Assembly: GCF_030145185.1 (NCBI RefSeq)
Contig: NZ_JAQYWB010000027.1
Coordinates: 1 to 64,000, forward strand
Length of the DNA stretch: 64,000 nt
Origin: Desulfoluna sp.
GTDB taxonomy: Bacteria; Desulfobacterota; Desulfobacteria; Desulfobacterales; Desulfolunaceae
Direction of reading: 5' to 3'
Part shown: positions 8,562-28,743 of the stretch, piece after piece
Layout of the letters: each line of letters starts with the position of its first letter
How positions within the stretch are numbered: position 1 is the first letter of the stretch
Notes under the pieces: model-generated
What the model saw: the letters and a program-made list of their open reading frames with translations, nothing else
Told to the model about the DNA's origin: nothing
The model's database searches: none
Translations under genes and position numbers: made by a program

Positions 8562-11021
8562 ATGAACACGAAAGCTGTCATGCCACAAAGCCCCCCCCCA
8601 ACACGACACGCCGGAGCCATTATCCGCCACCTGAAATACTCTCTGGGCGCCTCGCCTAAAAAGGCCCTGCCGCAAAGCCTCTATCAGGCCACAGCCCTTG
8701 CGGTGCGCAACCACCTCATTGATAAAATGATGGAAACGGAAGACCGATACACCCAGCGAAAGGCCAAGCGTGTTTACTACCTCTCTCTGGAATTTCTTAT
8801 GGGGCGTTCCCTGGGAAACAACCTGCACAACTTAGGGTTGTTTGACGCCTTTTCCGAGACCCTGACGGACATGGGAGCCGACCTCGAGGAGCTCCGCGAG
8901 CAGGAGCACGATGCCGCATTGGGAAATGGCGGACTGGGCCGTCTGGCCGCCTGTTTCCTGGACTCCATGGCCACCCTGGGCCTGCCTGGCTATGGATACG
9001 GCATCAACTACGAATTCGGCCTCTTCAAACAAGAGATAGACAACGGCTACCAGAAAGAGAAGCCCGACAATTGGCTGGTGGACGGCACCCCCTGGCTTAT
9101 CCATCACCCCGAGGCCGCCTGCATCATCCCCGTATACGGTCACATCCAGCACGCCGAGGACCGGGACGGCCACTACAATCCGATGTGGATGGACTGGAAA
9201 ACCCTCATCGGAGTCCCCCACGACATGCCCATCGCCGGGTATGGAGGCAAAACGGTGAACACCCTGCGTCTCTATGCGGCCCGATCCTCCGACGATTTCG
9301 ATATGGACATCTTCAATACCGGTGATTACCTGAAAGCGGTGGAGCAGAAGATGACCTCCGAGACCGTGTCCAAAGTGCTCTATCCCTCGGATGCCATGGA
9401 ATCCGGCCGGGAGCTCCGGCTGATTCAGGAATACTTTTTCGTCGCCTGTGCCATCCGCGATATCGTGGCACGCTACAAACGCAGCCACACAAATTTTGAC
9501 GCCTTTGCAGACCAGGTCGCCATTCAACTCAACGACACCCACCCGGCCCTTGCCGTGGCGGAGCTCATGCGCCTGCTGGTGGATGAACATGCCCTCGAAT
9601 GGGACCAGGCCTGGCAAACCACCTGCGCCACCTTTGCCTACACCAACCACACGCTCCTGCCTGAAGCCTTAGAAAAATGGCCCGTCTCCCTCATGGAGCA
9701 CGTCCTCCCCCGCCATATGCAGATCATCTTTGAAATCAACCACCGATTCCTTGCCGACGTTCAGTCTCGATGGCCAGGCGACACACAGCGGCCCGCGACC
9801 ATGAGCATCATCGAAGAGGGCCACCCCAAGCAGGTTCGCATGGCGCATCTGGCCATTGTAGGCAGCCACTCAGTCAACGGGGTGGCGGCTCTGCACTCTG
9901 AACTTGTCAAAAAAGACCTCCTGCCCGACTTTTTTGCTCTCTATCCGGATCGATTTTCCAACAAAACCAATGGTGTCACGCCCCGTCGCTGGCTGCTCAA
10001 GGCCAACCCAGGCCTGGCAAAGCTCATCGACAGCCAATTAAAGCGCCCCTGGGTCACCGACATCACGAACCTCACCGACCTGGTGCCCTTGAGCCGAAAC
10101 CCCGACTTTCAAAAAACATTCAAAGCCATCAAACAGGCCAATAAGAAACGCCTGAGCAAAATCATCTGGGACACGACACGCATCGTCGTCTCTCCGGACT
10201 CCCTGTTTACCATTCATGCCAAGCGTATCCATGAGTACAAACGCCAGCTGCTTTGCCTGCTTCATATCATTCACCAGTACCTCGCCCTGGTGGAGGATGG
10301 CATCCCCCCCAAAATCCCGCGTACCTATATCTTTGCCGGCAAAGCCGCCCCCGGATACGATGCCGCCAAACGCATCATTAAACTCATCAACAGCGTGGGA
10401 GACACCATCAACAACGACCCCCGGGTGGGCAATCACATAAAAGTCGTCTTTATCCCGGACTACCGCGTCTCTCTGGCTGAAAAAATCATTCCGGCCGCCG
10501 ACCTGAGCGTTCAGATTTCCACCGCGGGCAAAGAGGCCTCCGGGACCGGCAACATGAAGTTTGCGCTGAACGGCGCCCTGACCATCGGTACCCTCGACGG
10601 GGCCAACATCGAAATCATGGAGGAGGTGGGCCAGGAGAATATCTTCATCTTCGGCCTCACGGCAGAAGAGGTCCACGAAATAAACGTCTCACGCACCTAT
10701 AGGCCCTGGGAGATCGCGGAGAACACGCCCACCATACGCCGTCTCCTCGACGCCATCGGCTCCGGTCGCTTCAGCCCGGACGATCCCTCACGGTTTATCC
10801 CCGTCTGCGAGACCCTTCTCAGCGAATACGACCCCTATCTGCATCTGGCAGACCTCAGAGGCTACATCGCCGCTCAGGAAAAGGCCGAGGCCTGTTACGC
10901 CGACCCGGTTCGCTGGACAGAAAAAGCCATTTTAAATGTGGCCCATATGGGGAAATTCTCCAGTGACCGCACGATCAGAGAGTATGCGGAAGAGATCTGG
11001 CATGCAGCCCCTTGCCTGTAA
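8562..11021 (+). CDS. glgP: Glycogen/alpha-glucan phosphorylase
   Basis: Cleaves alpha-1,4-glucan with phosphate to release glucose 1-phosphate; PLP-dependent, cytoplasmic. About 819 residues, the standard length. Typical segments include RVYYLSLEFLMGR near the N-terminus, GNGGLGRLAACF, the FSNKTNGVTPRRWL block and the PLP site EASGTGNMKFALNGA with the Schiff-base lysine at about K666. An ATG 90 bases further upstream is in frame, but the start at 8562 has a strong GGAGGT eight bases before it and fits the family better. It heads the long rightward block; the STAS gene follows after 42 bases. In that setting it may supply Glc-1-P for an exported polysaccharide rather than only housekeeping glycogen turnover. 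Confidence 0.95.
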   Translation: MNTKAVMPQSPPPTRHAGAIIRHLKYSLGASPKKALPQSLYQATALAVRNHLIDKMMETEDRYTQRKAKRVYYLSLEFLMGRSLGNNLHNLGLFDAFSETLTDMGADLEELREQEHDAALGNGGLGRLAACFLDSMATLGLPGYGYGINYEFGLFKQEIDNGYQKEKPDNWLVDGTPWLIHHPEAACIIPVYGHIQHAEDRDGHYNPMWMDWKTLIGVPHDMPIAGYGGKTVNTLRLYAARSSDDFDMDIFNTGDYLKAVEQKMTSETVSKVLYPSDAMESGRELRLIQEYFFVACAIRDIVARYKRSHTNFDAFADQVAIQLNDTHPALAVAELMRLLVDEHALEWDQAWQTTCATFAYTNHTLLPEALEKWPVSLMEHVLPRHMQIIFEINHRFLADVQSRWPGDTQRPATMSIIEEGHPKQVRMAHLAIVGSHSVNGVAALHSELVKKDLLPDFFALYPDRFSNKTNGVTPRRWLLKANPGLAKLIDSQLKRPWVTDITNLTDLVPLSRNPDFQKTFKAIKQANKKRLSKIIWDTTRIVVSPDSLFTIHAKRIHEYKRQLLCLLHIIHQYLALVEDGIPPKIPRTYIFAGKAAPGYDAAKRIIKLINSVGDTINNDPRVGNHIKVVFIPDYRVSLAEKIIPAADLSVQISTAGKEASGTGNMKFALNGALTIGTLDGANIEIMEEVGQENIFIFGLTAEEVHEINVSRTYRPWEIAENTPTIRRLLDAIGSGRFSPDDPSRFIPVCETLLSEYDPYLHLADLRGYIAAQEKAEACYADPVRWTEKAILNVAHMGKFSSDRTIREYAEEIWHAAPCL

Positions 11022-11063
11022 ACCTTGCGGGCACCCACCGTTCACACCACAGGGAGAGACATC

Positions 11064-11402
11064 ATGCGGTTAGAAACTAAAAAAGAGGGCGGGGTCTTCA
11101 TTATCCGTTCACTGGAGAGCAGAATGGACGCCAAGGTTGCCGTGGACTTCCGAGCCGAAATTGCCCGCCACATCGACGACGGCAACAAACACATCGTGTT
11201 CAATGTCGGGGGCATCAACTTCATCGACAGCAGCGGCCTGGGAGCCATTGTCTCCTGCCTGAAACACGTGGGCCGTGAAGGTGAACTGGTCATCGCGGAG
11301 GCGGATGAAACGGTGCTGAGCATGTTCAAGCTCACCCGGATGGACCGTGTCTTCCGAATTTACGAGACCGAACGTGAAGCGATCCAGGCCATGTCCACCT
11401 GA
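11064..11402 (+). CDS. STAS-domain anti-sigma factor antagonist (SpoIIAA/RsbV-like)
   Basis: A 112-residue single STAS domain. The FIDSSGLGAI motif carries the serine pair normally phosphorylated by an RsbW-type kinase in partner switching. The chosen start has an AGGGAGA sequence eight bases upstream; an in-frame earlier start at 11025 adds a poorly conserved tail and is less likely. The kinase gene follows 21 bases later, and a PP2C phosphatase able to reverse the phosphorylation is encoded in the same strand block at 26817. The client could be a sigma factor or a biosynthetic enzyme; neither can be read from sequence. Confidence 0.9.
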   Translation: MRLETKKEGGVFIIRSLESRMDAKVAVDFRAEIARHIDDGNKHIVFNVGGINFIDSSGLGAIVSCLKHVGREGELVIAEADETVLSMFKLTRMDRVFRIYETEREAIQAMST

Positions 11403-11423
11403 CGCATCCCACAGGAGCCCACC

Positions 11424-11855
11424 ATGGAATCAAAAAAAATTACCTTTTCCATCGACAGCAACCTCAGGGATGTGGCTCTCATCGGTCTGTCTATCAACAA
11501 AATCTGCTCCCAGATTCCCCTCTCGGATGTGGAAGTCTATCAGATTGAAGCCTGCGTGGTGGAGGCCATCAACAACACCATCGAACACGCTTACAAAAAC
11601 AGCAGCGGCAACCCTGTGGAGGTCAAGCTCAACCTCGGCATCGACCGCATTACCTTTGAGGTCTGTGACATCGGCATCCGTATGATGGCCTCTCATACCC
11701 CCTCTCTGGACTTCGACCCCGATGACCTGGAAAACCTCCCGGAGGGAGGCATGGGGCTTTTTATCATCCAGCAGGTCATGGACCAGGTGGACTACACCTC
11801 AGGCAACGGCCAAAACATCCTTAAAATGACTAAAATCTTCACAAATAAACCCTGA
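11424..11855 (+). CDS. RsbW/SpoIIAB-like serine kinase anti-sigma factor
   Basis: A 143-residue GHKL ATPase (HATPase_c_2) that would phosphorylate the STAS protein encoded just upstream. The N-box reads EAINNTIEHAY and the G2 region EGGMGLFII. The G1 box is DIGIRM rather than DxGxG, so nucleotide binding could be altered. Usual size for this family, with an AGGAG before the ATG. No sigma factor gene lies next to it, which suggests control of a distant sigma factor or direct control of a protein in this polysaccharide block. Confidence 0.87.
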   Translation: MESKKITFSIDSNLRDVALIGLSINKICSQIPLSDVEVYQIEACVVEAINNTIEHAYKNSSGNPVEVKLNLGIDRITFEVCDIGIRMMASHTPSLDFDPDDLENLPEGGMGLFIIQQVMDQVDYTSGNGQNILKMTKIFTNKP

Positions 11856-11873
11856 CCCCCACGTGAAAAAGCC

Positions 11874-13559
11874 ATGAATACATATGCCCTGACAGACAAT
11901 GACCAAAAAAAACTCTCCGAGAAGGGGATCACCGAAGCCCAGGCCATCCAACAACTCGAGATTCTGCGGCAAGGGGTTCCCTATATTGAGGTGGACCGCC
12001 CCTGCACCTTAAACGACGGGATCATCCGCCTTGCCCCCGACCGGATGCAAACCTGCCTCAAGGGATATGACAGGGAAGCGCCCCGGCGTGAAATCACCAA
12101 ATTCGTTCCAGCCTCCGGTGCCGCCACCCGCATGTTCAGGGACCTCATTCAGATTGAGCACACCGATGCCTTTGTGGAACCGGATTGGATCAAAAAAAAA
12201 GCAGCCGAAGGGGGGACGGCCCACCGTTCCCTCCTCACGGTGATAAACAACCTGAATCGATTCGCCTTTTATGAGGCGCTCACCGCCTGTTCGGGTCATG
12301 AAGAGATCCCGATCACCCGCCTCCAGAACCGGGAGCACTACCTTCGAATCCTGCGGTACCTGCTTCATCCCGTGGGGCTCGATTATGCCCGCCTCCCCAA
12401 AGGACTGGTGCTCTTCCACCGCTACCCTGAAGGCCCCCGCACCGCCTTTGAGGAGCATCTGATCGAGGCGGCACAGTATGCCTGCGGCAACGGCGGTATC
12501 TGCCGACTTCATTTCACGGTTGCCTCCGAACACCTGGCCCGATTCGAGGCCCTGTTCAACCATGTCCGGAGGGGATATGAGGCGGCCCTTAACACACATT
12601 TCGAGCTTCACTTCTCCACCCAGAAAAGCAACACCGACACCCTGGCCATTGACCTTGAAGGTCGCCCCTTCCGCAACGACGATGGCGGCCTTCTCTTTCG
12701 TCCCGGAGGCCACGGTGCCCTCATAGAAAACCTGAACCGCCTGAAAGGGGACATCGTCTTCGTCAAAAACATCGACAACGTCGTCCCCGACCGCCTCAAA
12801 CCCTTCGCCACCCGATACAAAAAGGCCCTGGCCGGCCTTCTGATCTCCCTTCAATCCGAGACCTTCAAGCGCCTACGCCTCCTCTCCGCCCCCAAGGCCT
12901 CCTCCGCCGAAATCGATGAAGCCATCGGGTTCGGTGAAAATCAGCTCCATATCATCCCCCCGCCCGATATCCGAGAGGCCTCTCAACAGCGCCGACGGGA
13001 GTGGATCATGGGCCGCCTGAACCGCCCTTTGCGGGTCTGTGGCATGGTCCGCAATCAAGGCGAAGTCGGAGGCGGCCCCTTCTGGGTCACCACGCCTGGG
13101 CACGGGCTCTCCCTTCAGATCGTCGAGAGTTCCGCGGTGGATCCGACGTCTGCCCACCAACAACGGCAAATGAATGCGGCCAACCACTTCAACCCGGTGG
13201 ATCTGGTGTTGGGACTCCGTGATTTTGAGGGAAACCCCTTTGACCTGATGCAATTTGTGGATCCCAAAGCGGTCTTTATCACCGGCAAATCCAAGGCAGG
13301 CAGAGCCCTAAAGGCCTTAGAGCTTCCGGGCCTCTGGAACGGAGGCATGTCGGACTGGAACACCTTGTTCGTGGAGGTCCCGCCGGAGACCTTCACCCCG
13401 GTGAAGACCATCACCGATCTGCTGAGAGCCGAGCATCTCTCCGATGCCGAGTCAGAAACACCCCCACGTTCCTGGGAGGCCTCCCCCTCACCCACACAGG
13501 GTCTCGGCCCCTTTCCCCTGCCAGGGGAAAACATGCGCCTCGGGGAGGCCCCCCCATGA
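11874..13559 (+). CDS. DUF4301 family protein
   Basis: A 561-residue soluble protein with the hallmarks of DUF4301: KFVPASGAATRMFRDL near residues 75-90, GLVLFHRYPEG, and GRPFRNDDGGLLFRPGGHGAL followed by a KNIDNVVPD segment. The function is not established. The PGGHG loop followed by a NIDN strand resembles, by eye, the UTP-binding loop and metal-binding region of UDP-sugar pyrophosphorylases. Lying between genes for Glc-1-P production and a glycan synthase, a nucleotidyltransferase role would make sense, but this is inference. The last about 45 residues are low-complexity and proline-rich and overlap the next gene by four bases (ATGA). Confidence 0.85.
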   Translation: MNTYALTDNDQKKLSEKGITEAQAIQQLEILRQGVPYIEVDRPCTLNDGIIRLAPDRMQTCLKGYDREAPRREITKFVPASGAATRMFRDLIQIEHTDAFVEPDWIKKKAAEGGTAHRSLLTVINNLNRFAFYEALTACSGHEEIPITRLQNREHYLRILRYLLHPVGLDYARLPKGLVLFHRYPEGPRTAFEEHLIEAAQYACGNGGICRLHFTVASEHLARFEALFNHVRRGYEAALNTHFELHFSTQKSNTDTLAIDLEGRPFRNDDGGLLFRPGGHGALIENLNRLKGDIVFVKNIDNVVPDRLKPFATRYKKALAGLLISLQSETFKRLRLLSAPKASSAEIDEAIGFGENQLHIIPPPDIREASQQRRREWIMGRLNRPLRVCGMVRNQGEVGGGPFWVTTPGHGLSLQIVESSAVDPTSAHQQRQMNAANHFNPVDLVLGLRDFEGNPFDLMQFVDPKAVFITGKSKAGRALKALELPGLWNGGMSDWNTLFVEVPPETFTPVKTITDLLRAEHLSDAESETPPRSWEASPSPTQGLGPFPLPGENMRLGEAPP

Positions 13560-15835
13560 AAACAGAACACAGGCAGACGGACGGATTGCCCCACCGTCGC
13601 CCCTGGCTCAGATTCCTGATCCTCCTGGGAGCCCTCCTGGGGCTGCTGGGCTGCGCCACGCATCCCACGTTCCCCCTTTTTACCCCGAAGGCCGAAGGAC
13701 CGGATGAATGGTCCCTTGCCGGAAATTGGCGATATCAAAGCGGGACACTGGCACCTGAAAACTTGTATTCCCCGGAGGTAAGCGACGCCGACTGGCCTCA
13801 GATGACCCTCCCGGCCAACTGGTACCTCCGCGGCCTGGACCAGTCCGGAGTGGTCTGGTTCCGAAAAACCGTTGCCCTTGGCCCCCCTGACGGAACCCTG
13901 GCACGCCTTCACTTTGAGGGGGTGGACTACGCCTGCGATGTCTGGGTCAACGGACACTGGGTGGGGCACCATGAGGGGTACTTCGCCCCCTTTGCCTTTC
14001 CGGTCACAAAGCACCTGAAAGAGGGCTCAAACCTCATCGCCGTCCGAGTCAACAGCCCCCATGAGGAGTACGGCAAGGCCTGGAGTCTGCGCAAACGCCT
14101 CATCAAAGGGGTCCTGAATCACCACGACACCCGCCCCGGCGGAGCCTGGTCTCCCCGGGGCCAGGAAAAAAACAGCGGAGGTATCTGGGCCCCGGTCTCT
14201 CTGCGTTTCACCCGGGAATTGGCCATCACCCGACTTGCCGTCACCCCCCGACTCACAAAAAACGGGGCCACGGCCCAGGTCGCCGTTCAGGTGTCACCTG
14301 GCGATGCCTCTAAAAAAGAGATCCGCATCGAGGCCCGCCTCGCCCCCGTCAATGCCCCACACGGTCCGGGACAAACAGCCGAAAAAACAATCCAGTTCAC
14401 GATGACCGGGCACTCGGCCACCGAGACCACACTCCCCCTTGAGGTCCCCAATGCCCATCTCTGGTGGCCCTGGGAGCTGGGCCCCCCGGCCCTCTACCGT
14501 CTGACCGTCACGGTTAGAAAGGGAAAAACCCTCCTGGACCAACGCTCGGAGATCTTCGGATTCCGGGAGATCACCCAGGATCCTGTCACCAAAATATGGC
14601 GCATCAATGGCAAAAAAATATTTCTTCGCGGGACCAACTACATCGCCTCCCAATGGCTCTCAGAGATGGACCGTCAGCGTCTCAGCTTCGACCTGTCGCT
14701 GATGAAAAAGGCTCACATCAATGCCATCCGCGTGCATGCCCACGTGGAACCCAAAGCCTTCTACCACCTCTGTGATGAGATGGGCCTGCTGGTCTGGCAG
14801 GACTTTCCCCTGCAGTGGGGCTATACCGATGCCCCTGAGTTTAAACGCGAAGCGATCAAGCAGGCACGGGAGATGGTCTCTTCTCTTTATAATCATCCGA
14901 GCATCATCACCTGGTGCGGCCACAACGAGCCCCCCTGGGACGCCCACTGGATGAAATGGAAATACCCCGATTACACCCCAGACCAGAATCGCAGCTTAGA
15001 TGAGGCCCTCCTGCAGACCTTGAAAGAGGCCGACCCCTTCCGCCACGTCCAGAAACACTCCGCCACCGGCGAGCACCCCTGGCTGGGATGGTATTCAGGC
15101 CATTGGCACGACTATGCCACCCCCACGACCCTGCCGGTCATCTCTGAATTCGGTGCCCAGGCCCTGCCGGTACGAGACACGCTGGAGCACTTCCTGCCCC
15201 CGGACGCCCTCTGGCCCAAGACAGCGGACGCCTGGGAACGCTGGCGGTACCATAACTTTCAAAAAAAAGAGACCTTTGAGATCGCTGGTGTGGCCCAGGG
15301 GGAGACGTTAAATACCTTGATCCACAACACCCAGACCTATCAGGCAAAGCTGATCCAACTGGCCGTAGAATCCTACCGGCGACAACGCTTTGCTCCGGTC
15401 ACGGGAATCTTCCAGTTTATGTTTGTGGAAGGCTGGCCCTCGATGAACTGGGGGGTCGTCGATTACCTCCGAAACCCAAAACCCGGCTACGACGCGCTCA
15501 AAAAAGCGTATCAACCCCTTCTGCCCGGCATTGAGATGAAAAAAGACATCTGGCCCCCCGGAGAGACCGTCTCGGCCAATATCTGGATCATCAACGACCT
15601 GCCCAAAGACATTCAGGGCGCCACATTGATCGTGGCCCTTCGCAACGGGCAGAGCCGACTGGTTGAAAGCCGGCGTCCCCTGGACATTGAAGCCAGCAGT
15701 GCCCGCGAAATCACCGACATCTCCCGTTCGGGGCTCCCGGAAGGAGACTATTGCATTGACGCCGCCATCCTTGCCCCCGGTGGAAAGGTGCTCGCCCTGA
15801 ACCGTCTCGACTTCCGCGTACAAAAAGGAGAGTGA
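13556..15835 (+). CDS. Glycoside hydrolase family 2 lipoprotein (beta-mannosidase/glucosidase-like)
   Basis: A 759-residue secreted enzyme. A lipobox LLGC places the lipidated cysteine at about residue 33. Next come the jelly-roll sugar-binding domain (WSLAGNWRYQ...VVWFRKTV), an immunoglobulin-like domain, and the TIM barrel with the acid/base glutamate E458 in WCGHNEP and the nucleophile E531 in ISEFGAQ. Both GH2 catalytic residues are present. The barrel is closest in feel to beta-mannosidase/exo-glucosaminidase-type GH2 enzymes, but the substrate is uncertain. It overlaps DUF4301 by four bases and is followed directly by a GH9 gene, suggesting trimming or turnover of the polysaccharide made by the next synthase. 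Confidence 0.88.
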   Translation: MKTEHRQTDGLPHRRPWLRFLILLGALLGLLGCATHPTFPLFTPKAEGPDEWSLAGNWRYQSGTLAPENLYSPEVSDADWPQMTLPANWYLRGLDQSGVVWFRKTVALGPPDGTLARLHFEGVDYACDVWVNGHWVGHHEGYFAPFAFPVTKHLKEGSNLIAVRVNSPHEEYGKAWSLRKRLIKGVLNHHDTRPGGAWSPRGQEKNSGGIWAPVSLRFTRELAITRLAVTPRLTKNGATAQVAVQVSPGDASKKEIRIEARLAPVNAPHGPGQTAEKTIQFTMTGHSATETTLPLEVPNAHLWWPWELGPPALYRLTVTVRKGKTLLDQRSEIFGFREITQDPVTKIWRINGKKIFLRGTNYIASQWLSEMDRQRLSFDLSLMKKAHINAIRVHAHVEPKAFYHLCDEMGLLVWQDFPLQWGYTDAPEFKREAIKQAREMVSSLYNHPSIITWCGHNEPPWDAHWMKWKYPDYTPDQNRSLDEALLQTLKEADPFRHVQKHSATGEHPWLGWYSGHWHDYATPTTLPVISEFGAQALPVRDTLEHFLPPDALWPKTADAWERWRYHNFQKKETFEIAGVAQGETLNTLIHNTQTYQAKLIQLAVESYRRQRFAPVTGIFQFMFVEGWPSMNWGVVDYLRNPKPGYDALKKAYQPLLPGIEMKKDIWPPGETVSANIWIINDLPKDIQGATLIVALRNGQSRLVESRRPLDIEASSAREITDISRSGLPEGDYCIDAAILAPGGKVLALNRLDFRVQKGE

Positions 15836-15837
15836 CC

Positions 15838-20851: not shown

Positions 20852-22341
20852 AGAGACAAAATGGATGGAACAGGAAAATAAGATGCCTTTTGATGGGAGG
20901 GATTCTTTTGTCACTTTGCGCCTGCGCTCCCAATGATTTTCAGCTTGTGCCGACCTATGACGAAAAAGACCCCGAACGCATCGAAACCGTGGCCATCGAC
21001 AAAAAACCAACCCCGGCCACCGTGGAAAATTCGGGCCGCCACCCGGGAAGAAATGGCCCCCTCACCGATGAGGAGATGGACCTGGCCCGAAGGGCCTGGA
21101 AGTATTTTGAGAACAACTACAACCCGGAGACAGGTCTGGTCAATGCCGTGAATGACTACCCATCCACCACCATGTGGGACACCGGCTCGTATTTAGGGGG
21201 CCTGGTGGCCGCCTATGAGTTGGGGCTCATCGATAAAAATGAGCTCAATATGCGCCTGACCAAAATTTTAAAAACCTTTAACGAAATGGATTTTTTCCAA
21301 GGGGAGCTGCCCAACAAGGCGTACAATACCCAGAACGCACAAAAGGTAAACTATGCCAACCAACCCGGTGAAATTGGCTATTCGGCCCTTGACCTCGGTC
21401 GCCTTCTCATCTGGCTCAAAATCATCAAAGAACGCTTCCCCGAGCATGGAAACGCCATCGACAGCTTTATCCTCCGTTGGAATTTCTGCCGGGTCCTGGA
21501 CAACTGCGGTACCATGTACGGGGCCGTCGTCAACGAGGGGAAAACCCAATACGTCCAGGAGGGACGCCTCGGGTATGAAGAGTACGCCGCCAAGGGATTC
21601 CAGCTTTGGGGATTCGACACCACCCGGGCCTCGAAACCCGAGCCCTATGCCTTTATCCTGATTTTTGATGTCAATGTCCCCTACGATACGCGGGATCCGA
21701 GAAAACTGGTGGCTCACAACTACGTGGTGTGCGAAAGCTACGTCCTGGACGGGATTGAGCTCAACTGGGATCTGGTCTCAGACCGCGACTCCAACGACAT
21801 GCGGCACACCGACCGCGTCAACGCCGACTTTGCTCAACGTATTTATCAGGTTCAGGTCTCACGATTTCGCGTCACGGGCATCCTCACCGCCCGCACCGAG
21901 CACCAGCTCGACGGCCCTCCCTACTTTGTCTACGACACCATCTACACGGACGGATACCCCTGGAACACCATCACCGAAGATGGCAGCTATGTGCCTCAAT
22001 ACGCAGCCATTGCCCTTAAAGGGGCCTTTGGACTCTGGACCCTCTGGGAGACCCCGTATACCGATCTTCTCTACGACGCGGTCTCCGGACTCTACGAGCC
22101 AGACAAGGGCTTTTACGAAGGAAGATACGAAGGAACAGGGGGCCTCATCAACACCTTTACGGCCAACAACAACGGCATCATCCTCGAAACCCTGCTGTAT
22201 AAAACCGCAGGAAAGCTGCTTAAATTTTCAGACCAGCCCAGCAAATGGGATCAGACCCTGGAAAACGAATTTCTCGGGACCCATCAGTGCTTCCCGGGTC
22301 ACCGAGACTCCTGTGGTGCCTTTCGAAAAGAGACCCATTAA
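20848..22341 (+). CDS. DUF3131 protein 2, lipoprotein
   Basis: A 497-residue paralogue with a lipobox-like LCAC near residue 26, so probably lipid-anchored in the periplasm. The DUF3131 blocks are all present: KYFENNYNPETGLVNAV, TMWDTGSYL, LPNKAYNTQNA, GYSALDLGRLL, EGRLGYEEYAAKGF and PPYFVYDT. The stop of the preceding paralogue overlaps this start as ATGA. It differs from copy 1 by a short insert near residue 315 (DRDSNDMRHTDR region). Confidence 0.9.
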   Translation: MKRQNGWNRKIRCLLMGGILLSLCACAPNDFQLVPTYDEKDPERIETVAIDKKPTPATVENSGRHPGRNGPLTDEEMDLARRAWKYFENNYNPETGLVNAVNDYPSTTMWDTGSYLGGLVAAYELGLIDKNELNMRLTKILKTFNEMDFFQGELPNKAYNTQNAQKVNYANQPGEIGYSALDLGRLLIWLKIIKERFPEHGNAIDSFILRWNFCRVLDNCGTMYGAVVNEGKTQYVQEGRLGYEEYAAKGFQLWGFDTTRASKPEPYAFILIFDVNVPYDTRDPRKLVAHNYVVCESYVLDGIELNWDLVSDRDSNDMRHTDRVNADFAQRIYQVQVSRFRVTGILTARTEHQLDGPPYFVYDTIYTDGYPWNTITEDGSYVPQYAAIALKGAFGLWTLWETPYTDLLYDAVSGLYEPDKGFYEGRYEGTGGLINTFTANNNGIILETLLYKTAGKLLKFSDQPSKWDQTLENEFLGTHQCFPGHRDSCGAFRKETH

Positions 22342-22353
22342 AAGCGGAGAACC

Positions 22354-23880
22354 ATGCGCCGGAGAATCAGCCCAGTTGACAAGCCACGACTCAACCTATC
22401 CCGAGGGATGCCCCCTTCAGGTTCTGGCATCCGGGCCGCCTCCTTGTCTCAACGCAACCGGAGGTACCGCCTCCTCGGCCTCCTCCTTATTGGCCTCACC
22501 CTCCTTGCTCTGACGGGCTGTGGGGTGCTGGTCCGAGGCGTCAGCAATGGCCTGACCAGCACCCACAACTCGCCCCTTTTCAGGCAGGGGCGGCATGGGC
22601 CCCTGGACGAACACGAGCAAAAAGCCGCCGAGACCGCCTGGCACTATTTTGAGAACAATCACAACCCCAAGACGGGGCTTGTGAACTCGGTGGATCGCTA
22701 CCCGGCGACCACCATGTGGCACACCGGCGATTATCTGGCGGCCATGGTGTCCGCCCGAGAGCTAGACATTATCACCCCGTGTGAGTTTGACGAGCGACTG
22801 AGCAGCGTCGTCCATTTTTTAAACACCATGCCCCTTTTTTTCGATCGGCTGCCCAACAAGGTCTACAACACCCAGAGCGGTGCCATGGTCGATTACTCCA
22901 ACCAACCGGGGGAGATCGGCTGGTCCGCCATGGACATCGGACGGCTTCTCACCTGGCTCTACATCGTCAAGTGCCGGTACCCGATCTTTTCGGAGTACAT
23001 CGACAAAGCGGTCCTCCGATGGAATTTCTGCGATATTTTAGACAATTGCGGAACCCTCTACGGGGGATTGAAGGTCCACAACAAAATTGACACCTTTCAA
23101 GAGGGGCGCCTCGGCTATGAGGAGTACAGCGCCCGGGGATACCAGCTCTGGGGGTTCTCCACCACCCAGGCCTCCAAAATCGAACCGTATGAGATGGCGA
23201 CCCTTTATGGCGTCCGGTTTCCTTACGACAGCCGGGATGTCCGGGAAACCAACACCTACGCCCCGGTGCTCAGCATGGGATACCTGCTGGATGGCCTGGA
23301 GTTCAATTGGGATAAAACCGATCAGCGAAACGGGTGGGACAGCTATCACAGCGAGCCGGACATGGCCCGCATCGCCGATGCGATTTACGAGGTTCAGGAG
23401 GCACGCTACATGAATGATCACATCTTCACCGCCCGAACCGACCACCAGGTGGAGGGGCCGCCCTATTTTGTCTACGACTCCATCTTTGCGGCGGGGTACC
23501 CCTGGAACGTGATCTCCGACAACGGGCAGCATCATGAAGACCAGGCCCTGGTCTCCACCCGCACGGCCTTTGGCATGTGGGGGTTGTGGAAGACACCGTA
23601 CACAGACCGCCTCATGAAATTGGTCCACTGCCTCAATGACCCGGAAAAAGGGTGGTACGAAGGACGCCTTGAGAACACAGGGGAGCACATGAAGCTCATC
23701 ACCTCCGGCACCAACGCCGCGGTTCTTGAGACCCTCTTGTACAAATCTCAAGGCAAACTATCCTCCTGTCCAGACCCCCAGGACGAACGACCGATTCCTT
23801 TTTACGATCTTCAGATCACCGATCCCTTTAAAGAGGAAGGCAAATGCCTCCCCCTGGAACGCAAAGGATGCGTCCCGTGA
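22354..23880 (+). CDS. DUF3131 protein 3, lipoprotein
   Basis: A 508-residue paralogue. A basic N-terminal stretch of about 35 residues precedes a hydrophobic signal ending in the lipobox LTGC (about residue 55), so the true start may be later than 22354. The DUF3131 domain shows HYFENNHNPKTGLVNSV, TMWHTGDYL (the usual D of TMWDT is H), LPNKVYNTQSG, GWSAMDIGRLL, EGRLGYEEYSARGY and PPYFVYDS. A 12-base gap separates it from copy 2. It is most similar to copies 1 and 2, consistent with serial duplication. Confidence 0.88.
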   Translation: MRRRISPVDKPRLNLSRGMPPSGSGIRAASLSQRNRRYRLLGLLLIGLTLLALTGCGVLVRGVSNGLTSTHNSPLFRQGRHGPLDEHEQKAAETAWHYFENNHNPKTGLVNSVDRYPATTMWHTGDYLAAMVSARELDIITPCEFDERLSSVVHFLNTMPLFFDRLPNKVYNTQSGAMVDYSNQPGEIGWSAMDIGRLLTWLYIVKCRYPIFSEYIDKAVLRWNFCDILDNCGTLYGGLKVHNKIDTFQEGRLGYEEYSARGYQLWGFSTTQASKIEPYEMATLYGVRFPYDSRDVRETNTYAPVLSMGYLLDGLEFNWDKTDQRNGWDSYHSEPDMARIADAIYEVQEARYMNDHIFTARTDHQVEGPPYFVYDSIFAAGYPWNVISDNGQHHEDQALVSTRTAFGMWGLWKTPYTDRLMKLVHCLNDPEKGWYEGRLENTGEHMKLITSGTNAAVLETLLYKSQGKLSSCPDPQDERPIPFYDLQITDPFKEEGKCLPLERKGCVP

Positions 23881-25907
23881 CCCCACACCCCCGACATCCC
23901 TGGATCCCAAAACAGTGGCGGTGGATTCCCCTCCTCTTCCTCTGCCTCTTCCTTCTGCGCCCTGCCCTCAGCCCGGGCACCACAGAGGCCCCCTGGGATT
24001 TCACCCTCTACAGGCAGGGATTGGCCCACTTTAATGAGCAGAAATGGATCGATGCCGCAGAGAACTGGATGGCAACCGGAGACCGCCTCCTTAAAAAATC
24101 CCGGAACAAGGCCTCCCTTCGCAAAGCAGGGCTGGCCCATATCTTTGCCACCATTGCCTTTGAAAAAGCCGACAACGCCATGGCCTACACAAGCTGGTCC
24201 ACAGCGGTCCGTTATTTCCTGGAAGGGCAGACCTCCTGGGAAGCCGAACGCACGGCCCTTCGCCTCTACACAGAGCAGGTCAACGCACGGCTCAAAGCGG
24301 GCGTTACCGGCACCCTGCCCTTCTCTGGAAAAAATAAGGAACAGCGGGTGCTGGAGATGGAGGAGACGCTTCACCTGTCCCGTTACGACAGCCCGGTCCA
24401 GGGGCTTAAAATACCCGAGGTCAAACCTGTGGAGCCACAAATCAACGTCTCACGACAATATTTCCCCCGCCCTCCGGCCCTGACTGATCAGGTAGCCGAC
24501 ATGCCGGTGGAAGAACGCGCATCCCGCCATGGCACGGAGAGTCCCCCTGCGCCCATCCCGCCTCCAGAGACCGCGATCCCCCGACGGCACATCCAACCTC
24601 CCCTGCCACCCCCTGCCGAGGGGACCGCTGCCCTGCCCTCCCAAGCCGAAACCGGCACCCTCGTAGAAGCGCCCCTGCCGCCCCCTGACGCGCCTTCCAC
24701 CCAGGGGCGGGTGGCCAACAGAATCCGCCCCACCCCGCCAGGCCCTGTCATCCGCGGAGCGGCAAGAGGCCAGGCCGGCCCTCTGACGGACGAAGAGCAG
24801 GCCATCGCCCGCACAGCCTGGGGCTACTTCAATGAAAATTACCAGACCAACACCGGAATGATTAACGGAAGCCACGACTACCCCTACGCCACCCTCTGGG
24901 ATCTGGGAAGCACCCTGGCCGGTTATGTTGCCGCCTTAAAACTCAACCTCATCCCCCCCCAGGAAGGGCAGGCCAAAATCATTCGGCTCCTGGAAACCTT
25001 TCAGGTGATGGAGCTCTACAACGACGAACTCCCCAACCGGCAATACAACACCCAGACCGGAGAGATGACAGACCTCAAGAGTCGCCCGACCCACCACGGC
25101 AGTGGATGGTCTGCCCTGGACATCGGCCGCCTGCTCATCTGGCTCAAAATCACCGAAGCCTGGTTTCCTGACCTGAAAGAGCCCGTGGAGCGAGTCATTC
25201 AACGCTGGACATTTGACCGCCTCGTCATGTACCGGGAGCTCAACAACGCCCTGTACAACGGCCAAACCGAGGTCATCCGGCAGGAGGGACGCCTGGGCTA
25301 CGAGCAATATGCGGCCATGGGGTTTACACTTCTTGATCACGATGTCCGCCAGGCCCTGGACTATGCCGAGACTCAAAAAATGACCCTCCTGGGCCTGGAC
25401 ATGCTCTTTGACACCCGGGACCGGGCCTTTCTGACCAGCGATCCCTTCGTCATGGCCAAAATGGAGATAGGCGCCATCAACAACACCTTCTCCTCTCTCA
25501 CCGAGGCGTTCTACGGCATTCAAAAACAACACTGGCTCACAAGCGGAGAGATCACCGCCGTCAACGAAGACGCCTTCGACAAAGAGCCCTGGTTTGTTTA
25601 CAACTCCCTTTTTTACAATGGAATTCCCTGGGTCTGCCTCGCCCATGATGAAAAACCGGTGCCGGAGCTGGCGACGGTCTCCACCAAGGCGGCGATGGCC
25701 TGGAGCGTCCTCTATGATGATGCCTACGCCACGGCACTGCGACATCACGTCATCGGCCTGAGACATCCAAAGGATGGCTTCTATGCAGGGGTCTATCCGG
25801 ACGGCGAGGTCAATCCTGCAAAAAATATCAACACCAACGCCGTCATTCTCGAAGCGATGCTGTACCTGAAGCGAAACCGAGTGCCCTTCCTTCTCTCACC
25901 GGATTGA
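23844..25907 (+). CDS. DUF3131 protein 4 with N-terminal extension and Pro-rich linker
   Basis: At 687 residues, the longest and most divergent of the four. A signal/anchor helix lies at about residues 29-45. A helical region (about 50-150), starting with FTLYRQGLAHFNEQKWIDAAENW, resembles a tetratricopeptide-type repeat and may bind a partner. A proline-rich linker of about 120 residues follows, then DUF3131 (about 310-680) with GYFNENYQTNTGMINGS, TLWDLGSTL, LPNRQYNTQTG, GWSALDIGRLL, EGRLGYEQYAAMGF and EPWFVYNS. The start overlaps copy 3 by 37 bases; an ATG at 23868 is an alternative. The linker could let the domain reach across the periplasm. Confidence 0.87.
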   Translation: MPPPGTQRMRPVTPHPRHPWIPKQWRWIPLLFLCLFLLRPALSPGTTEAPWDFTLYRQGLAHFNEQKWIDAAENWMATGDRLLKKSRNKASLRKAGLAHIFATIAFEKADNAMAYTSWSTAVRYFLEGQTSWEAERTALRLYTEQVNARLKAGVTGTLPFSGKNKEQRVLEMEETLHLSRYDSPVQGLKIPEVKPVEPQINVSRQYFPRPPALTDQVADMPVEERASRHGTESPPAPIPPPETAIPRRHIQPPLPPPAEGTAALPSQAETGTLVEAPLPPPDAPSTQGRVANRIRPTPPGPVIRGAARGQAGPLTDEEQAIARTAWGYFNENYQTNTGMINGSHDYPYATLWDLGSTLAGYVAALKLNLIPPQEGQAKIIRLLETFQVMELYNDELPNRQYNTQTGEMTDLKSRPTHHGSGWSALDIGRLLIWLKITEAWFPDLKEPVERVIQRWTFDRLVMYRELNNALYNGQTEVIRQEGRLGYEQYAAMGFTLLDHDVRQALDYAETQKMTLLGLDMLFDTRDRAFLTSDPFVMAKMEIGAINNTFSSLTEAFYGIQKQHWLTSGEITAVNEDAFDKEPWFVYNSLFYNGIPWVCLAHDEKPVPELATVSTKAAMAWSVLYDDAYATALRHHVIGLRHPKDGFYAGVYPDGEVNPAKNINTNAVILEAMLYLKRNRVPFLLSPD

Positions 25908-25913
25908 TGGACC

Positions 25914-25949
25914 GGTGACGGGGCTGTTCGTCTCCGTCGCCCCTTTTTT
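25914..25949 (+). terminator. Terminator-like hairpin inside the polysaccharide block
   Basis: GGTGACGG pairs with CCGTCGCC across a 12-base loop, followed by CCTTTTTTA, just after the last DUF3131 stop. It suggests transcription from the biosynthetic genes ends, or is attenuated, before the metallo-hydrolase/phosphatase genes. Confidence 0.65.
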
Positions 25950-25983
25950 ACGAAAAAGGATTATCTACATTAAGGAGTCACCC

Positions 25984-26817
25984 ATGCCCCACACAATCAA
26001 CTTGAACCTCGACTACGACAACCCCATCAAAATTGCCGAAAATATCTACTGGGTGGGCTTCTACGATAAAAAGAGCGGTCTCCACTGCAACCCCTATCTC
26101 ATTGTGGATGGGGATGAGGCCGTGGTCATTGACGGGGGAAGCCGGCCTGATTTTCCCACGGTGATGACCAAAATTCTTAAAACCGGCACCAACCCCTCGG
26201 ATATCCGGGCGCTGATTTACCACCACTACGACCCGGACCTCTGCGGCAGTGTCTCCGATTATGAGGACATCATCGAACGCGATGACCTGCGCATTATGTC
26301 CACCCTTGAAAACAATTTTTTCATCCATCACTACGGCCCGTCGTCCACCCTGGTGGACATCGCTAAATACAACGACCGGTTCACTTTTTCATCGGGCCGG
26401 ACCCTGCAATTCGTCCGGACGCCTTATGCCCACAGCGCCGGAAGTTTCATCACCTTCGACGATCAGAGCGGAGTCGTCTTTACCAGCGATCTGTTCGGAA
26501 GCTACGGCACCCAATGGGATCTGTTCATCCTGTTAAAAGAGATCTGCAAAGAGTGCATCGGTCATGCCGTGTGCCCCCATGGACAAGAGTACTGTCCCAT
26601 CAAGGACATCCAGAAGTTTCACCAAATGATCATGCCCTCGGGAAAAGCCCTGCGCCACGCGGTTAAAAAAATTCTAGAGACCCCGGCTGGCATGGCCGCG
26701 CCCCAGCACGGGAGCGTGATTCCCATGGGAAAAGACCTGCGTATCATCGGGGCCCGCCTCTTGGAGTTAAACAAAGTAGGCATCGACCGTATTGTCACTG
26801 AAGAGGGAGACAGCTGA
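25984..26817 (+). CDS. Metallo-beta-lactamase fold protein, ODP/flavodiiron-like
   Basis: About 277 residues. A two-iron metallo-beta-lactamase fold like the N-terminal half of flavodiiron proteins, without the flavodoxin domain (oxygen-binding di-iron ODP group). The first metal motif is HHYDPDLCGS, where canonical HxExDH residues are partly replaced. Later ligands look intact: H in TPYAHSAGS, D in VFTSDLFGS and H in PQHGSVIP. ODP proteins have been linked to oxygen sensing in anaerobes. A strong AAGGAG precedes the ATG at 25984; the in-frame earlier start at 25915 overlaps the terminator. It overlaps the phosphatase gene by one base, hinting that it senses oxygen or redox for that phosphatase. 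Confidence 0.85.
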   Translation: MPHTINLNLDYDNPIKIAENIYWVGFYDKKSGLHCNPYLIVDGDEAVVIDGGSRPDFPTVMTKILKTGTNPSDIRALIYHHYDPDLCGSVSDYEDIIERDDLRIMSTLENNFFIHHYGPSSTLVDIAKYNDRFTFSSGRTLQFVRTPYAHSAGSFITFDDQSGVVFTSDLFGSYGTQWDLFILLKEICKECIGHAVCPHGQEYCPIKDIQKFHQMIMPSGKALRHAVKKILETPAGMAAPQHGSVIPMGKDLRIIGARLLELNKVGIDRIVTEEGDS

Positions 26818-27791
26818 TGGATATCGAAGAACTGGGAATGCCCGAGCTCAAAGGTTTCAAACTTAAACGGGACATGGCTTTCAATGTCTTCAAGGCGGCG
26901 GTGCGCTACCGCACCGAAAAAAAAGACCATGACTTAAACAACCGGGTCCTGAAAACCATCCTCGCCCATTTCTCCCAATCCCAACGGGAACTCGCCACCT
27001 TAAACCAGCAGATGTACGACACCCAGCAGGAGCTGGAGAGTGATCTGAAGGTCGCGGCGGGTATCCAGGCCAGCCTTCTGCCGCAGGCGGCCCCCGATGT
27101 GGAGCAGCTCAAATTTGCCTGGAAATTTTTTCCCTGCCAGAGCATTGGGGGTGACATCTTCAACGTCTTCCGTCTCGATGAGGACCATATGGGGCTTTAC
27201 ATTCTCGATGTCAGCGGCCATGGCGTGCCCTCCGCCCTGGTGACCGTCTCCGTCTCCCAGCGGCTCAATGCCCAGAACGGCATGCTGGTGAAACGAAAGC
27301 AGGAGGACCCTCCCCGTTATCGCATCACCCCCCCTTCCGAGGTCCTTCAAATCCTCGATGAAGAGTACCCGATGGAACGTTTTGATAAATATTTTACGGC
27401 GGTGTACCTCGTCATCAATTTCAAAACAGGACATCTCACCTACAGCAACGCCGCTCATCCAGCCCCGGTCCTGCTTCACCCCGACAGAGACTATACTCTC
27501 CTGCGGGAAGGAGGCACCATCGTGGGCATGGGAGGGGTGCTCCCCTTCGATGAAGAAACGCTTGAACTGCAATCTGGAGACAAACTCATCCTCTACACAG
27601 ACGGCATGACCGAATCAAAAAATGAAGAGGGAGAATTTTACGGGGACGTGCGCCTGCAAAACTTTCTGGAAGCCAATAAAAACCTTCCCATTGCAGAACT
27701 CCTCACCACGGCCCACGAGCACATGATGGCCTTTGGAAAACACATGCCCTTAACCGATGACATCACCATGCTGGGGGTTGAATTTGTTTAA
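26817..27791 (+). CDS. PP2C-family (SpoIIE/RsbU-type) serine phosphatase
   Basis: A 324-residue cytoplasmic phosphatase that should dephosphorylate a STAS-domain antagonist. The N-terminal about 80 residues include a coiled coil (SQSQRELATLNQQMYDTQQE) that may take input. The SpoIIE domain begins at AAGIQASLLPQ, with metal-binding aspartates in GGDIFNVF, YILDVSGHG and ILYTDGMTE and a final TDDITML. Its start overlaps the stop of the metallo-hydrolase (TGATG), so the two are made together. The matching STAS antagonist and kinase are at 11064 and 11424, at the other end of this block. Confidence 0.92.
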   Translation: MDIEELGMPELKGFKLKRDMAFNVFKAAVRYRTEKKDHDLNNRVLKTILAHFSQSQRELATLNQQMYDTQQELESDLKVAAGIQASLLPQAAPDVEQLKFAWKFFPCQSIGGDIFNVFRLDEDHMGLYILDVSGHGVPSALVTVSVSQRLNAQNGMLVKRKQEDPPRYRITPPSEVLQILDEEYPMERFDKYFTAVYLVINFKTGHLTYSNAAHPAPVLLHPDRDYTLLREGGTIVGMGGVLPFDEETLELQSGDKLILYTDGMTESKNEEGEFYGDVRLQNFLEANKNLPIAELLTTAHEHMMAFGKHMPLTDDITMLGVEFV

Positions 27792-28743
27792 ACCGCCCCT
27801 CTCTATCGCCCTGAGTCTCCTGCTCTGTCTTTCCCTTCTAAAAACCAATCTCTGCCGGGCAGAGACCCTGGAAGAGATCTATCAAGCGGCCCTCACCTCA
27901 TTTTCCATGCCCCTGCGTGACCTCATGGAAAAAGAACACCCCTCGGAGTGGCGCAATCTCTTCTCAGGCCTGAGCGGCAACATAGGCGTCACCTTCCCCT
28001 TGAAAGACACGATCCGGGAATCCAGAGGCATTGACGGCGATCAGAGTGGGGAGGGCTTTCGAAAATCTACCCTGGGGGCCACCTTCAAATACAACCCCTT
28101 GAGCTACTGGTTTGCCTCTGTCACTTTCAACGGCTATCTGGACTTTGATCAAAGCAACCCCTGGTGCCCGGACTGCCAGGCCCCCTGGGACCCGGATTTT
28201 TCCTACACCTTCGGCTATGACGACTGGCACCCCTATACCTTCAGCCTCACGTATGCCAACTATGGAGGCAACCGCCTCAACCCGGACCGCGAAAAAAAAG
28301 AGAAGGTCACCGACTTTTCTGGCGGTGCCTTCTCCCTGGGTTGGAAATTTCCCATTCCCCGCAGCATTGAAGAGCTCTTCATCGTCCACTCCACCGGAGG
28401 GCTGGCCGGAGGCCTGAACTACTCCCTCACCCCCAACTACTCAGATCTGGCCTCTCTTACGGAAAAAAAATGGAAACAAACCCTCTCTCTCTCCCTTAAA
28501 TACACCATCCACACCTGGTGGTATGTCAACCTCACCTGCAACTACTATCCCGAGCCCGATCAACAACAGCCCTGGGACCCGGATTATACCTACGGATTCG
28601 GATTCTTCGACTGGCATCCGGGGACCCTGTCCATTCAGTACAACAATTACTCAGGCAATCGTTACCCCTGGAATCCATCCTCCCCGGATACCGGGACGTT
28701 CAAAGACGGCAGCATCTCCGCGGTCTGGTCATGGGTGCTGTAA
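27757..28743 (+). CDS. Predicted secreted outer-membrane protein with internal duplication
   Basis: I do not recognise the family. A signal peptide is followed by about 290 residues of alternating aromatic/polar strands ending in WSWVL, an aromatic C-terminus typical of outer-membrane beta-barrels. Two homologous modules are visible: APWDPDFSYTFGYDDWHPYT...YANYGGNR and QPWDPDYTYGFGFFDWHPGT...YNNYSGNR. The ATG at 27757 overlaps the phosphatase by 35 bases; TTG codons at 27778 and 27784 could be the real start and give a better signal peptide. As the last gene of the block it could be an export pore or surface anchor for the glycan (inference). Confidence 0.7.
   Translation: MTSPCWGLNLFKPPLSIALSLLLCLSLLKTNLCRAETLEEIYQAALTSFSMPLRDLMEKEHPSEWRNLFSGLSGNIGVTFPLKDTIRESRGIDGDQSGEGFRKSTLGATFKYNPLSYWFASVTFNGYLDFDQSNPWCPDCQAPWDPDFSYTFGYDDWHPYTFSLTYANYGGNRLNPDREKKEKVTDFSGGAFSLGWKFPIPRSIEELFIVHSTGGLAGGLNYSLTPNYSDLASLTEKKWKQTLSLSLKYTIHTWWYVNLTCNYYPEPDQQQPWDPDYTYGFGFFDWHPGTLSIQYNNYSGNRYPWNPSSPDTGTFKDGSISAVWSWVL

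Follow-up and report, generated by a model that had tools for sequence, protein, structure and literature searches.

We analysed a window of 64,000 nucleotides from Desulfoluna sp. (NCBI RefSeq assembly GCF_030145185.1, contig NZ_JAQYWB010000027.1, positions 1 to 64,000 of the forward strand; genome size 5.79 Mb) and describe here the block at positions 8562-28743, where genes for the synthesis of a polysaccharide stand together with genes of a partner-switching module. Open reading frames combined with Pfam and NCBIfam profile scans show a single string of genes on the + strand with intergenic gaps from -37 to +76 bases. Our reading, which we favour with some reservation, is that this block represents, in Desulfoluna, a widespread clade of loci for beta-glucan synthesis that bring their own partner switch.

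The string opens with a glycogen/alpha-glucan phosphorylase (8562..11021; PF00343, 1066 bits; TIGR02093), a likely source of glucose-1-phosphate. It is followed by a STAS protein similar to RsbV and SypA, with a serine in the motif NFIDSSG (11064..11402; PF01740, 8e-18), whose start is probably the ATG at 11064 and less likely the TTG at 11025, and by an RsbW-like serine kinase (11424..11855; HATPase_c_2, PF13581, 7e-25). The DUF4301 protein encoded next (11874..13559; PF14134, 7e-192) is a candidate sugar-1-phosphate nucleotidyltransferase, judging by its position, a fusion and its mutual exclusion with UDPGP. Two glycoside hydrolases (GH) with N-terminal hydrophobic segments were recognised by Pfam, a GH2 enzyme with a segment that is lipobox-like by eye (13556..15835) and an endoglucanase-like GH9 enzyme (15832..17583; PF00759, 4e-75). 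The membrane synthase belongs to glycosyltransferase family 2 (GT2; 17580..19394; 2e-16) and is cellulose-synthase-like, with no PilZ domain and with QRFKY in place of QxxRW.

Four DUF3131 genes follow, with Pfam matches from 2e-147 to 2e-109. DUF3131 a (19391..20851) has an N-terminal membrane segment and the predicted fold of beta-1,2-glucan transglycosylases and glucanases, the N-terminus of DUF3131 b (20848..22341) is lipoprotein-like by eye, DUF3131 c (22354..23880) has the lipobox LTGC, and DUF3131 d (23844..25907) carries an N-terminal extension of about 320 residues. Between DUF3131 d and the next gene, folding revealed a terminator-like hairpin with a T run (25914..25941). Behind it lie ODP, a member of the oxygen-binding di-iron protein family (25984..26817; PF19583, 4e-52), which probably starts with the ATG at 25984 and less likely with the GTG at 25915, and a PP2C (SpoIIE) phosphatase without a receiver domain (26817..27791; PF07228, 1e-41). 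The last gene (27757..28743) had no Pfam match, and its structure model predicts a 12-stranded outer-membrane beta-barrel.

The STAS, RsbW-like, synthase, GH2, GH9, four DUF3131, ODP-like and PP2C genes named in the initial annotation were all found in their places on the + strand; to these we add the phosphorylase that opens the block, DUF4301 between RsbW and GH2, and the barrel gene at the end. A gene for an SBF-type transporter (6589-7773) precedes the block and occupies the same place in four further genus members (G001, G002, G004 and G005), in G001 even without the synthase.

Linkage of the partner switch and the synthase

All three component types of a partner-switching module of the RsbU/RsbV/RsbW type are present with their key residues, which we counted in gene-called proteins only. 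The DSS motif with the phosphorylatable serine occurs in the Desulfoluna STAS protein and in 57 of 57 homologues. E47 and N51 in the N-box of the kinase, which we take to be the catalytic Glu and Asn, are kept in all 66 homologues, and the metal-binding Asp of PP2C in all 63.

Searching with a DUF3131 profile in one genome per species, we obtained at least 564 confirmed candidate loci and kept the best 80. As these were picked by similarity to the Desulfoluna block, the linkage counts are biased in that direction. The loci come from Vibrio, Photobacterium, Shewanella, Ferrimonas, Thiothrix, Leucothrix, Cocleimonas, Noviherbaspirillum and Sphaerotilus, from Methylococcales, Granulosicoccaceae, Kapabacteria and Electrothrix, and from others. 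GT2 was found together with DUF3131 in 79 of the 80, and L083, a short contig with no GT2, was dropped from the counts. At least 6.5 kb were available on both sides of GT2 in 53 of the 79 loci (full-context loci). All 53 had matches to STAS and RsbW, and 52 of them to PP2C, which was absent in L068; the other 26 loci, with shorter flanks, gave 16 matches for STAS, 16 for RsbW and 12 for PP2C. The median distance from GT2 was 551 bases for RsbW, 2.1 kb for STAS and 3.6 kb for PP2C (maximum 12.5, 12.1 and 9.1 kb, respectively), and in only 40 of 73 loci was RsbW on the strand of GT2 and no more than 900 bases upstream of it.

As a control we used BcsB cellulose stretches of about 20 kb from the same genomes, found in 8 of the 25 genomes searched. 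Seven of these eight stretches had a GT2 match and none had STAS, RsbW or PP2C. Because the three regulators occur in 53, 53 and 52 of the 53 full-context loci against none of the eight BcsB stretches, they are not accidental neighbours. The tie between a partner switch and a polysaccharide synthase, as proposed in the initial annotation, is therefore well supported, and the outcome named there as fatal to the proposal, relatives in which the regulators are never linked to the synthase, is contrary to what we saw in all 53 loci and in a second genome of the phylum (G118, below). In 23 non-Desulfoluna genomes, chosen by hand for spread and with positions matched by hand, the locus RsbW was the strongest HATPase_c_2 match of the genome in 21; the exceptions were L068, where it was second-best, and L140, whose contig begins just before GT2 and where no RsbW was seen. 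In Shewanella abyssi the locus is present twice on a single contig, with the copies (L095, L096) running in opposite directions. What looked like fusions of RsbW with GT2, or long fusions of the nucleotidyltransferase, in the Sphaerotilus loci L131 and L135 was rejected as overlapping open frames in GC-rich DNA.

Regarding other Desulfobacterota, where the initial annotation had suggested looking for the same gene order, four genus members out of the six that we examined have an identical order (G000, G002, G004, where it is split over two contigs, and G005). G003 showed neither a DUF3131 nor a DUF4301 match, and G001 retains of the block only DUF4301-ODP-PP2C. Full-length DUF3131 matches in a phylum sample of 395 genomes were restricted to G000 and G118. 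In G118 we found RsbW, STAS, GH2, GT2, DUF3131 a-d, a second STAS and the barrel on two contigs, together with receiver-like and HPt-like proteins recognised by eye, so the linkage of STAS and RsbW with the synthase extends to this genome. Among ten Desulfobacterota genomes, RsbW at 49 % identity or more was present in exactly five (G000, G002, G004, G005 and G118), and these are exactly the ones with the full DUF3131 set; the best RsbW match in G001 reached only 29 % identity. G012 has DUF4301 near a PP2C that is 47 % identical to that of the Desulfoluna block. L046 (G012:C201), from a relative within the same taxonomic order, holds decayed pieces of the genes for DUF3131 d and the barrel. 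A gene similar to GT2 and mannosylglycerate synthases adjoins STAS and the barrel in G118 (L062:1234-2541), and a GT2-family gene of similar length (representative L113:15147-16430) was matched in 30 of the 79 best-match loci.

The probable glucan product and its precursors

The synthase scored 234 bits against the NCBIfam family CelA, below the cut-off of 699, and its nearest solved structure is BcsA (199 bits). The DD, DxD and SED motifs are kept where the alignment of the GT2s is ungapped. The position of QxxRW reads Q-R-[FY]-K-Y in all 78 ungapped rows of 80, with Y for F in one. A smaller GT2 alignment held 19 of the 28 non-redundant GT2s and the Desulfoluna protein. None of the 20 GT2 members scanned contained a PilZ domain, so the synthases that come with the partner switch lack the cyclic di-GMP (c-di-GMP) domain usual in cellulose synthases. 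No BcsB match was found in G000 or G002, and thus the GT2 locus shows none of the three marks of BcsA that we considered (QxxRW, PilZ and a BcsB partner).

The AlphaFold2 model of DUF3131 a had a pLDDT of 89.4 and was based on a 49-row alignment (48 of 58 non-redundant rows and the Desulfoluna protein). The top 19 Foldseek rows with this model consisted of 15 structures titled as beta-1,2-glucanases or cyclic glucan synthases and four titled 'putative glucoamylase'. Fold comparison gave 15 rows at Z 24-36, of which twelve again bear the names of beta-1,2-glucanases or cyclic glucan synthases and three, presumably GH144 relatives, are called 'putative glucoamylase'; other (alpha/alpha)6 enzymes began at Z 21, below this group. 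DUF3131 is thus predicted to share the (alpha/alpha)6 fold of the beta-1,2-glucan enzymes of the SGL clan (GH144/162/189/192-194), a predicted likeness that is new here.

The agreement at the sequence level was weak, with 3.4e-5 for the DUF3131 profile against 8wy1. In the phylum sample, Pfam DUF3131 also touches frames of about 3000 residues, which we took for cyclic glucan synthases, and hhalign against these frames gave 93.9 % over 109 columns. E229, a candidate general acid, is acidic in all 49 rows (E in 45, D in 4), the residue alignment to known enzymes being unreliable, and E296 and E406 are invariant. The available part of the report on TiCGS gives E1356/E1442 as catalytic residues (PMC10834661), onto which the mapping of DUF3131 is not secure; an attempt to locate the catalytic residues through a sequence alignment with the GH189 domain was given up, as this alignment is unreliable beyond the first 110 or so columns. 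As far as the accessible description of the cyclic glucan synthase (8wy1) goes, the likeness lies in the predicted DUF3131 fold (Z 35.8) and a weak sequence kinship, but there the domain belongs to one giant protein, whereas here GT2 and several exported DUF3131 proteins are separate.

Taken as a glucan, which is likely, the product may not be cellulose, since DUF3131 has the predicted fold of beta-1,2-glucan enzymes; from this model we take the beta-1,2 linkage as a lead. Of the 79 loci, 9 had an OpgC match and 10 a GH16 match. The barrel encoded by the last gene was modelled with a pLDDT of 81.6, and the matches of the model include porins and FapF, with low query TM-scores (0.24-0.40). The gene itself was matched in 46 of the 53 full-context loci.

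The supply of sugar nucleotides seems to be solved differently among the loci. A nucleotidyltransferase gene of the PF00483 type was called by tblastn in 38 of the 53 full-context loci, PF00483 being shown in the representative L098:2391-3566, and in all 38 it lies between STAS and RsbW; Desulfoluna has DUF4301 after RsbW instead. UDPGP (PF01704) was found in 33 of 58 relatives and DUF4301 in 12, counting a short fragment in G008, and never both (Fisher 6e-6; by genus 0 of 7 without G008, p 5e-4; both statistics ignore relatedness). This mutual exclusion suggests that DUF4301 replaces a sugar-nucleotide pyrophosphorylase. The two families share a GHG...NIDN-like motif, with a weak hhalign match (23.9 %, E 8e-4 over 36 columns), and Pfam found no UDPGP match in the Desulfoluna DUF4301 protein. 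A kinship of DUF4301 with the PF00483-type enzymes is not supported, as hhalign found nothing, and the DUF4301 profile had no match in the PDB up to E 10.

In Ca. Kapabacterium (L068:16953-18974, the same as L186:1123-3141) DUF4301 and STAS are joined in one frame of 673 residues, which is a possible pointer to the target of STAS. Five other loci (L182, L183, L184, L185 and L196) have DUF4301 in one frame behind an N-terminal stretch with the motif GPESTGKTTLA, presumably NadR-like. Matches to the glycogen phosphorylase recur upstream in Sphaerotilus (L131, L135) and at a contig edge in L109.

ODP and the possible input to the phosphatase

The initial annotation had suggested an oxygen or redox cue as the signal for the switch. 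Among solved structures, ODP is nearest to two oxygen-binding di-iron proteins, PDB 6qrq (1.4e-18) and 6qnm, and its HxDxD, H, D and H, which we take to be the di-iron ligands, align with 6qrq. Pfam recognised only PF19583 besides Lactamase_B and no flavodoxin domain. A receiver was found in 52 of 62 homologous PP2Cs and a GAF domain in three (the alignment held 62 of the 63 homologues and the Desulfoluna protein; L096, a duplicate of L095, was left out and L074 is cut by the locus edge). The domain scan of the PP2C in the Desulfoluna block detected neither of these nor any other recognised sensor domain, and in each of the five genus members where both genes were found, ODP is immediately followed by PP2C.

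Elsewhere the situation is different. ODP matches at 1e-25 were obtained in 11 of 247 phylum genomes, the host included, and no PP2C match stood beside ODP in the 3.3-3.9-kb loci of eight other genomes (L155-L161 and L164, with L162 and L163 outside this set; the own ODP frame of L164 did not show in the locus listing used for the pairing). The pairing of ODP and PP2C elsewhere in the phylum is thus unsupported. Other loci offer other candidates for gas sensing. H-NOX was matched in 12 of the 79 loci (L070, L072, L073, L075, L077, L080, L082, L084, L085, L087, L108 and L139), and beyond these twelve the Pfam-checked H-NOX of L083 adjoins a hybrid histidine kinase. In seven Shewanella loci a family whose scanned member contains YgbA_NO is located upstream of PP2C.

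In Treponema denticola, ODP is described in the accessible part of the report as an oxygen sensor coupled to a homologue of methyl-accepting chemotaxis proteins that lacks a sensing module (PMC7666581). The likeness comprises the family, the ligand pattern and the coupling to a signalling protein without a sensing module, but the output is chemotaxis there and a PP2C phosphatase in Desulfoluna. Another report describes oxygen consumption at 2 % together with slower growth for Desulfoluna DBB (PMC7031245), so an oxygen cue would be relevant. The suggested cue is partly supported by the kept ligand pattern of an ODP that abuts a PP2C with no recognised sensor domain, but ODP occurs in a single best-match locus and G001 keeps an ODP-PP2C pair although it has no synthase. 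We regard the oxygen part as plausible, a reasonable, lineage-specific add-on of Desulfoluna.

Proposed control and related systems

From the computed gene content, conserved linkage, conservation of catalytic residues and predicted folds of DUF3131 and the barrel, we infer the following course, in which the enzymatic steps, the linkage of the glucan, the direction of control, the STAS target and the role of ODP are all conditional. Glycogen phosphorylase would release glucose-1-phosphate, which DUF4301 (a PF00483-type enzyme in most relatives) would convert into a nucleotide sugar. GT2 would make and extrude a beta-glucan, to be transglycosylated and trimmed in the periplasm by the exported DUF3131, GH2 and GH9 proteins and passed across the outer membrane by the barrel. 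Phosphorylation of STAS by the RsbW-like kinase would turn the synthesis off. PP2C would dephosphorylate STAS, as in SypE/SypA, with ODP, in place of the absent receiver, as its likely oxygen or nitric oxide (NO)/redox input. The free STAS could then bind and activate the synthesis machinery or occupy the kinase; its candidate targets are GT2, the nucleotide-sugar enzyme and a sigma factor encoded elsewhere. The sign of control is borrowed from SypA, which, according to the accessible parts of the reports, is active when unphosphorylated and has an unknown target (PMC4517449, PMC8256260).

A bolder version, which we hold to be doubtful as a whole, is that this is a widespread and so far undescribed glucan system whose switch has the synthase itself, or its supply of nucleotide sugar, as direct target and fills the role of c-di-GMP and PilZ in cellulose synthesis, that DUF3131 forms a new family of glycoside hydrolases/transglycosylases for a beta-1,2-type or cyclic glucan, and that exchangeable gas sensors plugged into the phosphatase (H-NOX in some Gammaproteobacteria, ODP in Desulfoluna) tie the output to O2 or NO. 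Direct action is suggested by the STAS-DUF4301 frame of one genome and by STAS and RsbW flanking the nucleotidyltransferase in many.

Several observations weigh against these proposals. The 53 full-context loci are not independent and cluster in related genera, and the locus RsbW is only the third-best HATPase_c_2 match in the host genome, although the first in G002. GT2 is cellulose-like, whereas DUF3131 points to a beta-1,2-glucan, and the candidate role of DUF4301 as a nucleotidyltransferase has as its basis the place of the gene, its mutual exclusion with UDPGP and one short shared motif. ODP was present in only one of the 79 best-match loci, the Desulfoluna one, and is preceded by the terminator-like hairpin, which by eye and by folding was not at that place in L035 and L037. 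G001 keeps DUF4301-ODP-PP2C without the synthase, STAS or a close RsbW, so that ODP-PP2C may serve something else and its exclusive link to the synthase is weakened. A further counterexample comes from a class sample centred on Photobacterium (274 genomes), in which full-length DUF3131 occurred only in the central genome G490 and in G637, the sole such genome not picked by similarity. In G637 (L240, G637:C1:575600-595500) a GT2 with 44 % identity adjoins a single DUF3131 with 41 %, no STAS, RsbW or PP2C match was found within 20 kb of the pair, and the GT2 shows neither the Q..[RK][WY] nor the [ST]ED pattern. A diverged pair of this kind can therefore do without the switch, and the linkage characterises the clade to which the Desulfoluna GT2 belongs, but not GT2-DUF3131 pairs in general.

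Four other explanations have to be considered. ODP might be a detoxifying or otherwise unrelated di-iron enzyme, with another protein, or the N-terminal region of PP2C itself, providing the input to the phosphatase. We deem this rather unlikely but serious, as the rarity of ODP among the loci and the ODP-PP2C pair of G001 agree with it and the hairpin at 25914-25941 may separate transcription units in the host genome, but the position of ODP immediately 5′ of PP2C in all five genus members having both, the missing receiver and the lack of a reductase-type flavodoxin domain in ODP argue for an input. A plain cellulose product, with DUF3131 proteins as accessory endoglucanases like BcsZ in bcs operons, would fit the closeness of GT2 to BcsA, the GH9 gene in the locus and the BcsZ structures that Foldseek matched to DUF3131 from rank 24 downwards. 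It appears unlikely given QRFKY in place of QxxRW, the absence of PilZ and of a BcsB match in the proteins and genomes mentioned above, the beta-1,2-glucan enzymes as the best structural matches of DUF3131, and OpgC in some of the loci.

The other two explanations concern the switch itself. STAS and RsbW score in the families of anti-sigma factor antagonists and anti-sigma RsbW, and Desulfoluna has additional HATPase_c_2 and SpoIIE genes elsewhere, some of them neighbours, so the RsbW-like protein could be a true anti-sigma factor and the switch could free a sigma factor encoded elsewhere, with the operon as only one target. However, no sigma factor family was found among the 14 operon proteins or among the scanned representatives of neighbour families (many neighbour families fall outside that scan), and genomes in which the DUF3131 set is missing or decayed have no close RsbW; we give this explanation a small chance. 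Smaller still is the chance that two unrelated modules have accreted, the synthase with STAS/RsbW and DUF4301-ODP-PP2C with another job. G001 has exactly the latter set and G012 a related PP2C near DUF4301, but PP2C stands beside STAS/RsbW in 52 of the 53 full-context loci, hence the switch needs no merger as an explanation, and the lack of a close RsbW in G001 for PP2C to serve (29 % at best) fits a remnant.

Of the systems to which a synthesis locus with its own partner switch can be compared, the syp locus has polysaccharide genes of another kind than the Desulfoluna block. In Vibrio fischeri, as far as the available parts of the reports go, the STAS protein SypA of a polysaccharide locus is controlled by a serine kinase and a phosphatase, acts below transcription on an unknown target and has an H-NOX gas sensor upstream (HnoX-HahK-SypF; PMC4517449, PMC12369376). 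SypE joins the kinase and the phosphatase in one response regulator; in Desulfoluna they are separate proteins and no receiver was found. Klebsiella pneumoniae 'block 3b', compared by description only, is a sister locus by its gene list, which the consulted part of a population-genomic study presents without a mechanism and without naming ODP (PMC12974863). HmpU/HmpW/HmpV of Nostoc punctiforme, likewise compared by the partial description available, form a partner switch in a motility and polysaccharide locus of another group of organisms (PMC8256260). The statement in the initial annotation that no described system has this layout is thus too strong in view of the Klebsiella sister locus and the SypE/SypA analogue. 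In the literature on partner switching in polysaccharide synthesis, in which subscription papers were thinly covered, we found the SypE/SypA work and no GT2-DUF3131 partner-switch locus named.

For the action of stand-alone STAS proteins in the control of polysaccharides, the locus offers a compact and widely conserved case with few candidate targets, one of which is named by the natural STAS-DUF4301 frame. If our reading is true, DUF3131, rarely named in the literature covered, would gain a testable enzymatic role, a di-iron oxygen sensor would feed a phosphatase and not a chemoreceptor, and the output of glucan may be tuned to oxygen in a marine sulfate-reducing bacterium.

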